A DNA stretch of 51,727 nucleotides from contig JACVJC010000017.1 of NCBI GenBank assembly GCA_015711795.1, positions 1 through 51,727 of the forward strand. The letters run 5' to 3'. Origin of the DNA: Candidatus Geothermocultor quzhuomuensis. GTDB taxonomy: Bacteria; Actinomycetota; Aquicultoria; Geothermocultorales; Geothermocultoraceae. Below the pieces are notes generated by a model, which had not been told where the DNA came from, made no database searches, and worked only from the letters and a program-made list of their open reading frames with translations. The position numbers and the translations under genes are program-made. Below are positions 45,300 through 49,893 of this stretch, in pieces. Numbering within the stretch: position 1 is the first letter of the stretch; the number at the start of each line of letters is the position of its first letter.

Positions 45300-45375
45300 T
45301 GGAGCGGATGACGGGACTCGAACCCGCGCTCTTCGGCTTGGGAAGCCGACGTTTTACCAACTAAACTACATCCGC
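45300..45375 (-). tRNA. tRNA-Gly (anticodon CCC)
   Basis: Cloverleaf on the minus strand: acceptor stem GCGGATG/CATCCGC, D-arm with AGTTGGTAAAAC, anticodon stem TCGGC/GCCGA around loop TTCCCAA (anticodon CCC), and T-arm GCGGGTTCGAGTCCCGT. The discriminator is T and a CCA end is encoded (45302-45300). It reads GGG codons. It stands alone. Confidence 0.95.
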
Positions 45376-45766: not shown

Positions 45767-46351
45767 CTAAAGAGGTTGTTCTCTCTTTTGTTGCCTTTTT
45801 TGAGTTAAAAATTTATTGATTAAAAAGAGACCAGCGGATATAACTCCTAAAAATAAAGCAACTGCAGCTCTCTCTTTTTTAAAGGGGTGAGAAATTGGTT
45901 GACCTTGTTTTACTAATCGGATTTGATGAGCATGGATATCCATATCACCTCCATGCTCAGGACAAGCCCGATTAAAAATACCTTTCACCCAAATAATATC
46001 ACCCGAATTTTTATAGTCGCCTTTGTACTTAATGAATCCTACCTGATTTGCCCAGCACCAAACACTCTGACCAGTGTTGTATCCTTTTAGCTTGGAACCA
46101 TTTTCAACATTTTTTGAACTATAAGAATCGTCATTTATGTTAATCCAAGCGTATTCTCCCCTCCTCATAACATCACCAATGACTTCACCTTGAAATTCAA
46201 CTTCTTTGCCATCGTAAAAATGGCACTTTTCTATTAGCTCAGCACTCGAGATTGCTTTAGCAAAAGCTGGCTGAGCAAAGAAAGCCAGTAACACTACAAT
46301 CTCTAAAATAAACAAAAAGATTTTTCTATTGGAACCTCCTTTCTTCATCAT
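45767..46351 (-). CDS. Exported OB-fold-like membrane protein, function unknown
   Basis: 194 residues. N-terminal signal or anchor (KIFLFILEIVVLLAFFAQPA, ending AFAK); a beta-rich middle of about 110 residues that looks like an OB fold (EVEFQGEVIGDVMRRGEYAW, GDIIWVKGIFNRACPEHGG); and a second membrane segment near 168-185 followed by a basic tail. The middle resembles nucleic-acid-binding-type OB folds found in extracytoplasmic proteins. It overlaps trkH by 4 bases (46348-46351), so it is co-translated with the potassium system and may be an accessory part of it. ATG 46351 follows AGGAGG. Confidence 0.65.
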   Translation of the reverse strand: MMKKGGSNRKIFLFILEIVVLLAFFAQPAFAKAISSAELIEKCHFYDGKEVEFQGEVIGDVMRRGEYAWININDDSYSSKNVENGSKLKGYNTGQSVWCWANQVGFIKYKGDYKNSGDIIWVKGIFNRACPEHGGDMDIHAHQIRLVKQGQPISHPFKKERAAVALFLGVISAGLFLINKFLTQKRQQKREQPL

Positions 46352-47850
46352 CGCCCCCTAATGGCTGCAATAATAAATCCAACAAAAGCAAAGATAGACA
46401 TAAATTCAAGCCTTCCAGCCCACATTTGAAAGATATAAACCACTTTCATCAAAACTGGCATTGCTGGAGATGTAACACCACAGGAAAGCCCAGTATTGCT
46501 ACCTGCTGAGACTGAATCAAACAAAGCCTCGACAACTGAATAACCATAGTAAGTACCAATAACTGTCCCCAACAAATAAATACATACATATGAGAGGACA
46601 ATCAATAGAGCAGACCTAACATGACTTTCTTCCAAAACAACATCCTTGATATGGTGAATTTTTTGAACAATAACACTGGCTTCAGGGGAAATAAGTTTTT
46701 TGATTTCTTGGATAAAAGCCTTAAAGATGATACCCATTCTTAAACCTTTAAAACCGCCGCCAGTAGAGCAAGCACTAGCACCGATAGCCATAGCAATTGT
46801 TACCCCAAGCATCGCCAAAGAACCCCACTGTTTTACAAATTCGCGACTGTAGATAGTAGCAAACCCCGTCGTTGTGTGACCTGAAGCAACGATGTAAAAG
46901 CCTTTTCTAAAGATAGCCATAGCATCAGGATAAACACCTAACTTCATCAATCCGACAGTTGCCAAGCTAAATGTGACCATCAAGGTAATAAAAAATGAAA
47001 CAACTTCGATATTGCGATATATTTCCCGCCTGTTTCCTGTCCAAACAGCCCAGTGGAGGGCAAAGTTAAAAGAGCCGATGATAAAGATAATTACCGTGAT
47101 TATTTCATAAACTAGACTGTGATAGTAACCAATATTATAGGATTGTGGGGCGAATCCGCCCGTGCTCCAGGCACCCATAAAGACCCAGATGCCATGGAGT
47201 AAACTTCGCACTACCGGCATACCTAAAAAGATTCCTGTTATCCAGAGAGCAATTGACCCAACAGCTAGATAAGAGAGACTAACTAACCAAATAGCTCTTG
47301 CTGTTTGAATCACATTAGGCATTAGTTTCTCTTCTTTTCCCTCGCCAACATACATTTTTACAGCTCCAGCTGTACCTTTAATCATAAAAGTTAGAGCAAT
47401 AACGATAATTCCTTGTCCTCCTGCATAGGTAAGAAGATGCCTCCACATATTGACAGCATTGGAAATATGGTCAAGGTCTTGAAGAAGATAAAGACCGGTT
47501 GTTGTATAGCCGCTCATTAAATCAAAGCAAGCATCGATGTACATCCCAAAATGGCCACTTAAAAAATGGGGAATTGCCCCTAAAACCATAGCTATAAGCC
47601 AAGAAAAAGAAGCAATAAACATCCCATGAAGCCAACTTAAATCTCCTTCTGTCTGGCAGGAAATATGCATTATTAATCCAAAGATGAAGCAAGAAAAGAT
47701 TCCAATCAAGAAATCAACGGCTGCATTCCATTCTTGGAAAATGAGAGCTACTAGGAGCGGGATAAGCATTAAAAGCCCTACGCCAATGAGAACTTTTCCA
47801 ACATAAAGACCGATTAACTTAAAATCGTTGAGGCGTGGACGGACTAACAC
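46348..47850 (-). CDS. trkH: Trk-type potassium uptake channel subunit TrkH
   Basis: Membrane-spanning potassium translocating subunit with four pore loops. About 500 residues. Selectivity-filter-like segments: SGYTTTGLYLL, GAWSTGGFAPQ, ASGHTTTGFATI and GSNTGLSCGVTS. Starts with GTG 47850 inside the TAG stop of the small membrane peptide upstream (TAGTG overlap); a TTG at 47859 is also in frame. It works with the two TrkA subunits encoded upstream on the same strand. Confidence 0.93.
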   Translation of the reverse strand: MLVRPRLNDFKLIGLYVGKVLIGVGLLMLIPLLVALIFQEWNAAVDFLIGIFSCFIFGLIMHISCQTEGDLSWLHGMFIASFSWLIAMVLGAIPHFLSGHFGMYIDACFDLMSGYTTTGLYLLQDLDHISNAVNMWRHLLTYAGGQGIIVIALTFMIKGTAGAVKMYVGEGKEEKLMPNVIQTARAIWLVSLSYLAVGSIALWITGIFLGMPVVRSLLHGIWVFMGAWSTGGFAPQSYNIGYYHSLVYEIITVIIFIIGSFNFALHWAVWTGNRREIYRNIEVVSFFITLMVTFSLATVGLMKLGVYPDAMAIFRKGFYIVASGHTTTGFATIYSREFVKQWGSLAMLGVTIAMAIGASACSTGGGFKGLRMGIIFKAFIQEIKKLISPEASVIVQKIHHIKDVVLEESHVRSALLIVLSYVCIYLLGTVIGTYYGYSVVEALFDSVSAGSNTGLSCGVTSPAMPVLMKVVYIFQMWAGRLEFMSIFAFVGFIIAAIRGR

Positions 47851-47978
47851 TAATACCAACTCACTAGAAGAAATCCAATAAATAAAGCTACTAGCATTAT
47901 TACACAGATAGCGAGAATCTCGATAGCTATACCAATGATATAATCAATAACTTTTACAGAGCGAGTTTTATTAGCCAA
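47850..47978 (-). CDS. 42-residue single-span membrane peptide of the Trk operon
   Basis: Too short for usual gene callers. TTG 47978, preceded by AAAGGAAAGG, encodes a basic N-terminus (MANKTRSVK), then an uninterrupted hydrophobic stretch (IIGIAIEILAICVIMLVALF) to the tyrosine end. Its TAG stop overlaps the GTG of trkH (TAGTG), implying translational coupling. It lies between trkA and trkH, so it may be a small subunit that stabilises TrkH, much as KdpF does in the Kdp pump; that analogy is inference. Confidence 0.6.
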   Translation of the reverse strand: MANKTRSVKVIDYIIGIAIEILAICVIMLVALFIGFLLVSWY

Positions 47979-47994
47979 GTGCCTTTCCTTTAAT

Positions 47995-49539: not shown

Positions 49540-49893
49540 ATGAAACAGGTTTTAATTATCTTTTTCCTCATTATAGCGTTGGTTTCTGCTTTTATAGTGG
49601 TGATGAAATCAACTAAAAGTGATGTTAAAAACTTCGAAATTCTTAAGAAGGAAATTGCCCCTTCACTTAGCAACAAAGCAATTATTAAAGGGATTGTTCA
49701 AAATAATGGTAAAGATGCCAAGATGGTGCTTATTAAAGCAGTTTTAAAAGATGAAAAGGGGACAATCCTTGATGAGCCTTATATCTCATTAAGAAATGTG
49801 GCTCAGGGAGAGAAAACTCCTTTTTCAATCGAAAGTTACGCCGATTTCTATAAAGTTACTTCTTTCGAAGTTTTTGTTGAATCATCGTTTTAA
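49540..49893 (+). CDS. Membrane-anchored FxLYD-like protein
   Basis: 117 residues. N-terminal membrane anchor or signal (IIFFLIIALVSAFIVVMKST), then a beta-sandwich-like domain with VQNNGKDAKMVLIKAVLKDE and VAQGEKTPFSIESY, the pattern of FxLYD/DUF3426-like domains. ATG 49540 has only a weak AAGGGAA site; a TATAAT is at about 49511. Stands alone between trkA and the response regulator. Function unknown; it would face outside the membrane. Confidence 0.7.
   Translation: MKQVLIIFFLIIALVSAFIVVMKSTKSDVKNFEILKKEIAPSLSNKAIIKGIVQNNGKDAKMVLIKAVLKDEKGTILDEPYISLRNVAQGEKTPFSIESYADFYKVTSFEVFVESSF

Follow-up and report, generated by a model that had tools for sequence, protein, structure and literature searches.

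A small single-span membrane peptide encoded directly before trkH is a probable accessory subunit in one clade of Trk potassium transporters

The window, by which we mean the whole stretch of 51,727 nucleotides analyzed from Candidatus Geothermocultor quzhuomuensis (contig JACVJC010000017.1), carries a compact trk locus on its minus strand (Table 1). The gene order is trkA1, trkA2, a 42-codon ORF, trkH and a 194-aa gene; the gaps are 16 bases at most, and the genes overlap at the last two joints. TrkH of the window matches PF02386 in Pfam with 116 bits (cut-off 27), and Pfam also finds the TrkA_N and TrkA_C domains in both genes upstream of the peptide. An alternative start for trkH, a TTG, is present at 47859. 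Upstream of trkA1 there is a divergent gene (49540-49893, plus strand) with a weak match to DUF2393 (E 0.0037, below the cut-off). An operon riboswitch was sought with Rfam at gathering thresholds, and the whole window yielded only a tRNA gene (45303-45375, minus strand).

Table 1. Features of the trk locus in the window.
Feature	Coordinates	Strand	Remarks
42-aa single-span membrane peptide ORF	47850..47978	-	TTG 47978-47976, stop TAG 47852-47850; conserved G16, E20
Shine-Dalgarno-like AAGGAAAGG, just 5' of the peptide TTG	47982..47990	-	read directly
TAGTG, peptide stop overlapping the trkH GTG start (47850-47848)	47848..47852	-	five bases common to both genes; read directly
trkH, 500 aa	46348..47850	-	PF02386
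trkA2, 218 aa	47995..48651	-	TrkA_N + TrkA_C
trkA1, 212 aa	48660..49298	-	TrkA_N + TrkA_C
194-aa OB-fold protein gene	45767..46351	-	ATGA overlap with the trkH end; signal-like N-terminus, C-terminal membrane helix

The 42 codons of the small ORF translate as MANKTRSVKVIDYIIGIAIEILAICVIMLVALFIGFLLVSWY. A head with the basic residues K4, R6 and K9 and the acidic D12 precedes a single hydrophobic span (best 19-residue Kyte-Doolittle mean 3.31), and a search of the window genome with the family profile gives a single copy (E ≤ 0.01). The first-pass annotation had described an ORF of this length between trkA and trkH with a ribosome-binding site, a basic head, a single span and a TAGTG overlap, all of which can be read in the sequence. 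It mentioned neither the TTG start nor the conserved OB-fold gene downstream of trkH.

That annotation also proposed looking for the ORF at the same place in relatives, its absence there counting against the proposal, and the ORF is there. We scanned trkH loci drawn from the window's class, its phylum and other phyla for hydrophobic ORFs that end between -60 and +40 of the trkH start, with the start set by alignment to the window TrkH. Such an ORF precedes trkH at 97 of the 103 loci with TrkH at least 45% identical (at L013, counted among the 97, the peptide stands before a trkH fragment), compared to 66 of 10,300 first-order shuffles of the upstream DNA. ORFs with the motif G-x3-E precede trkH at 93 of the same 103 loci, compared to 5 of 10,300 shuffles. 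Judged by this comparison of sequences, the small ORF is a real gene, found far above chance.

Presence of the ORF varies with the identity of TrkH to that of the window. Over 206 loci, the G-x3-E ORF was found at 26/28 loci with TrkH identity of at least 60%, 65/68 at 50-60%, 23/32 at 45-50%, 11/37 at 40-45%, 0/24 at 34-40% and 0/17 below 34%. The corresponding counts for any hydrophobic ORF are 28/28 (including L013 and L014, which score owing to a trkH fragment in front), 65/68, 27/32, 26/37, 22/24 and 1/17, the sole positive in the lowest band (L076) being the end of a TrkH gene that lies upstream. At L013 and L014 (L081 and L082; two genomes from a single genus), the order is peptide, trkH fragment, full-length trkH.

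Peptide ORFs are confined to a single part of the TrkH family. In a quick-search tree built from 192 TrkH proteins, with labels corrected by hand for L013, L014, L179, the second copies of L024 and L133, L117, L137, L108 and L076, all 158 rows that bear the ORF (121 with the Glu form, 37 without the Glu) fall within one clade of 178 rows (SH-aLRT 100, branch 1.36). No peptide ORF was found by the scan before any of the 14 sampled TrkH proteins outside this clade, and where those rows have an adjacent trkA, it usually ends against or inside the trkH start. For example, genome G308 has two extra TrkH genes outside the clade (L147, L153) without such an ORF. Clade members with the peptide come from Actinomycetota, Omnitrophota, Ratteibacteria and Bacillota. 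Twenty of the 178 rows lack the ORF by the scan, among them G719, G737, L028/L029/L113 and L026/G038; one row labelled as lacking it (L107/G138) has a single-span ORF without the Glu about 80 nt before trkH. The Glu-less rows (37/158) belong mostly to one branch of Actinomycetota and to the Coriobacteriia, and the TrkH columns that distinguish members with the Glu from those without it (e.g., S191, N262, K397) follow phylogeny. Loci of Coriobacteriia and other Actinomycetota (e.g., L060, L067, L068, L116, L130) have a Glu-less single-span ORF in the same place, which may be homologous to the peptide or may have replaced it.

Several arrangements separate trkH from trkA. There is no trkA within 600 nt in 26 of the 160 trkH genes that bear a small ORF and have at least 900 nt of upstream sequence (of these, 11 carry the motif; the ORF at the second TrkH of L133 is false, and L138 is a doubtful case). 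The peptide is thus kept where trkA is not adjacent, and therefore follows trkH rather than trkA. Genome G001 has two trkH genes in succession, each with its own peptide. Genomes G155, G185 and G204 have two peptides each, and G004 has a tandem second trkH without a peptide of its own. Taken together, the confinement to one clade, the presence independent of trkA and the separate peptide of each copy in G001 point to TrkH, not TrkA, as the partner.

At two loci (L150 and L242), the peptide and trkH follow a response-regulator-like gene, named by eye, instead of trkA. This arrangement suggests a regulated second copy of Trk.

Based on these results, we think that the peptide is probably a small accessory subunit of one TrkH clade, with binding to TrkH deduced from gene linkage. 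The first-pass annotation had suggested that Trk systems could have a new small subunit comparable in concept to KdpF. Linkage bears this out for one clade, and it does not extend to Trk systems in general.

The protein encoded directly after trkH is conserved along with the peptide. A homologue of it occupies that position at 100 of the 120 loci with at least 400 bases of downstream sequence, window included: 100/108 in the TrkH clade and 0/12 outside. Members have a signal-like N-terminus, an extracytoplasmic domain and a C-terminal span, and the domain has the conserved stretches GE, W and GD, with EHGGD-DIHA in most members. The predicted structure is a five-stranded OB barrel plus a helix (pLDDT 92.3). 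Its best fold match is 3kfu_B, a transamidosome chain (Z 12.0 over 90 residues, rmsd 2.4), with which aspartyl-tRNA synthetase and MCM chains tie. No Pfam family matches more than one of 10 members, and no PDB sequence matches at E ≤ 5. In NCBIfam, the lipoprotein model PRK11443.1 matches two members (best E 0.0022) and gives the window protein 18 bits against a cut-off of 124. This anchored OB-fold protein is likely to be part of the same Trk system.

The close pairing of these two genes raises an alternative in which the peptide works with the OB protein rather than with TrkH, either in an envelope unit for presenting or sensing something at TrkH, or with TrkH as a mere neighbor. The conserved position of the OB gene favors this alternative, as does the presence of both partners at 94 of the 108 clade loci with enough downstream sequence. 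Genome G038 has no peptide before trkH, and its OB protein (L268, 3058-3717, minus strand) has an extra N-terminal span. That span has the best single-domain score to the peptide profile among the matches listed (E 0.0018; the next is 0.068). By whole-sequence score, however, the same protein is only fifth (E 0.63), and its match to the L266 peptide (29.5 bits) is hardly better than chance matches of other OB proteins (27.8 bits); the G038 protein could possibly, if weakly, be taken as a fusion of both partners. The pairing is also broken at some loci. The peptide is present without an OB protein right after trkH at 5 loci, at least two of which are the first of tandem trkH copies and one of which is a trkH fragment. 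Conversely, the OB protein is present without a peptide right before trkH at 6 loci, in two of which the peptide precedes an interposed trkH fragment. We consider a partnership with the OB protein unlikely.

The peptide itself is short. Among 100 members anchored by the motif, the median length is 44 aa (range 34-75), the net charge before the Gly averages +2.8 and is not positive in 2, and 91 have A, G or S at the 15th residue after the Gly. Gly16 and Glu20 (G-x3-E) are invariant in an alignment of 50 members, which was partly selected for the motif, such that this invariance describes the Glu-bearing branch. The helix face that carries the Glu is more conserved; without the G and the E, the difference is not significant (p=0.13). 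A Shine-Dalgarno-like site precedes the start in 54 of 118 members, compared to 25 of 118 shuffled sequences. The third codon position varies most (5215, 3809 and 7721 mismatches at positions 1, 2 and 3). For 322 pairs chosen by TrkH identity (70-98%), pN/pS is 0.46 for the peptide ORF and 0.22 for TrkH, rough values because synonymous sites are near saturation (pS 0.70); an earlier value of 0.37, from pairs picked by peptide identity, is biased low. The amino acid sequence of the peptide is under purifying selection.

A short ORF that ends on the start of the next gene could also serve to couple translation, with ribosomes re-initiating at trkH and the peptide having little function of its own. 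The junctions are of a suitable kind: the peptide stop overlaps the trkH start by +4 (ATGA type) in 55 of the 100 anchored members and by +1 in 8, and the window has TAGTG. However, the overlap is dispensable. In the other anchored members, peptide stops range down to -47 relative to the trkH start, and in genome G748 the peptide ends about 130 nt before trkH. In addition, the ORF was not found in front of any trkH sampled from outside the clade, and selection has preserved the amino acid sequence with its two conserved residues. This conservation at the level of the protein is more than a mere coupler would explain, and we find coupling as the whole function quite improbable.

The distribution of the family across genomes bears on whether the peptide has any tie to trk genes at all. 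We ran a profile of the 50 members over 788 genomes from three phyla: 193 from the phylum to which G309 belongs (L050, recorded as Omnitrophota), 296 from the window's phylum and 299 from that of G307 (L054, recorded as Christensenella). At E ≤ 1e-3, the three samples give 47, 43 and 15 matches, respectively, for a total of 105 places. Coordinates compared by eye with the TrkH matches place 104 of the 105 directly before trkH. The position in G167, where trkH runs off the contig, was checked individually, and the lone exception is a match inside an 835-codon frame in G312. Outside trkH settings, the family gives only weak matches in the 788 genomes. Carriers include Candidatus Subteraquimicrobium carltonvillense (Actinomycetota), bins of Candidatus Omnitrophota and Ratteibacteria, and bins of Christensenella, Clostridiales and Aneurinibacillus.

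Within the Omnitrophota sample, 60 genomes have TrkH at E ≤ 1e-60, and 50 of them have a profile match adjacent to trkH at E ≤ 0.01. An ORF scan of the remaining ten found a divergent peptide in five (G663, G687, G702, G720, G761), a partial one in G774 and none in G719 and G737; G783 and G789 could not be judged. In the Bacillota sample (the phylum of G307), the peptide occurs in 14 of 14 genomes with TrkH at E ≤ 1e-147 and in 0 of 4 with a TrkH that is 31-34% identical. Plasmid records contain no close relative: all 22 records have less than 60% identity, and 20 of the 22 are listed at 26.3-31.0%.

Many small membrane proteins have independent roles, and the peptide could be one of them that merely shares an operon with the trk genes. 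With nearly every profile match directly before trkH, and with a linkage that persists without an adjacent trkA and through the trkH duplication in G001, we regard such independence as very improbable. Although the ORF in the window starts with TTG, the shuffle control, the codon-position bias and the conserved residues leave hardly any chance that it is spurious and has survived by accident in a conserved spacer.

Searches of databases returned no known family for the peptide. In Pfam, no family matches more than one of 50 members, the best being DUF4731 with one member (E 0.0015). NCBIfam has no family-wide match for the window peptide and 8 relatives, and the PDB has none by sequence, the best being rhodopsin (E 0.28). 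There is no description of the peptide among the matches listed from the open-licence literature. One candidate, a match of the window peptide to MPS-4, a "potassium channel accessory" model, was rejected: at E 0.35, it is below the cut-off and at chance level. KCNE and MPS proteins place one helix beside a K+ channel. These single-span channel accessory proteins are similar in idea only, and we claim no homology.

The closest parallel is KdpF. In the operon, the gene order is kdpF-kdpA. Like the peptide, with its 42 aa and one span in the window, KdpF is very small and single-span, and it is part of a K+ transporter, KdpFABC, that belongs to the same superfamily through KdpA. The two differ in several ways. 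The presumed partner of the peptide is TrkH, with no P-type ATPase, and the peptide has a basic head, a conserved Gly and an intramembrane Glu. Its gene neighbors are trkA, trkH and the OB protein gene, rather than kdpA or kdpB. No KdpF model is among the Pfam matches for the window peptide (E ≤ 1), 10 relatives or the 50 members (E ≤ 0.1), or among the NCBIfam matches for the window peptide and 8 relatives. A passage in PMC9651954, citing Gassel 1999, calls KdpF a lipid-like stabilizer of its complex. The best reading is that the peptide would be a small-helix accessory subunit of a kind new to Trk systems, one that is KdpF-like in how it works, if we read it correctly, and is not a member of the KdpF family.

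Known structures provide a second comparison, with the canonical TrkH-TrkA system of Vibrio parahaemolyticus (3pjz, 4j9u, 6v4j-l) and with KtrB-KtrA. The window TrkH is a TrkH by PF02386, and a structure model of the orthologue at L200 matches 3pjz, 4j9u and 6v4k with Z of about 40. The AlphaFold model of a read-through fusion of the peptide and TrkH of L200, made from an alignment of 58 rows (28 of them paired), has pLDDT 88.2 and pTM 0.86, which are fold scores only, with a good TrkH fold and a helical peptide. Among the matches listed, alignments to TrkH, KtrB, HKT and KdpA structures begin at model residue 53 or later, indicating that the extra helix is without a counterpart in those chains. 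Mean-field DCA between the peptide and TrkH (154 pairs, Neff 120) showed no covariation beyond that of shuffled pairings: the top inter-protein score was 1.02, and 2 of 8 shuffled pairings scored higher.

The best-supported reading is a small subunit, similar to KdpF, in a variant form of the Trk complex, since the ORF keeps its place, size, topology and two residues across several phyla and goes with one TrkH clade. From these patterns we infer how the peptide might be translated, how it might lie in the membrane and bind TrkH, what its Glu might do and how it might affect assembly or gating. The peptide would be translated just before trkH, with stop and start overlapping, and so would be present as TrkH is inserted. 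It would cross the membrane once, with its N-terminus in the cytoplasm, as expected from the basic head and the positive-inside rule, and its C-terminus outside. We suspect that it packs on TrkH through the helix face with the conserved Gly and Glu. The Glu would then be buried a few residues deep, close to the cytoplasmic end of the span and on the side where TrkA acts on TrkH; a passage in PMC6987127 states that TrkA gates TrkH. By stabilizing or tuning the TrkH-TrkA complex, the peptide could do what KdpF does for KdpFABC.

We can also imagine, tentatively and with rather low confidence, a transporter of five parts, in which two RCK subunits gate from inside, a one-helix subunit with a membrane Glu sits beside TrkH and the OB protein covers the outside. 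If so, the Glu could either gate the channel or link K+ movement to protonation, and a ligand outside the cell could be sensed by the OB protein, such that Trk would be controlled from both sides.

Trk is usually regarded as having two parts, TrkH and TrkA, and the structures and gating studies rest on proteobacterial members. If our reading is true, K+ uptake would include unstudied parts, a conserved extra helix and an outside domain, throughout a clade of TrkH from Actinomycetota, Omnitrophota and Bacillota. The peptide would also be an example of a protein of fewer than 50 residues that is easily missed by annotation of a single genome and made firm by comparison across genomes.
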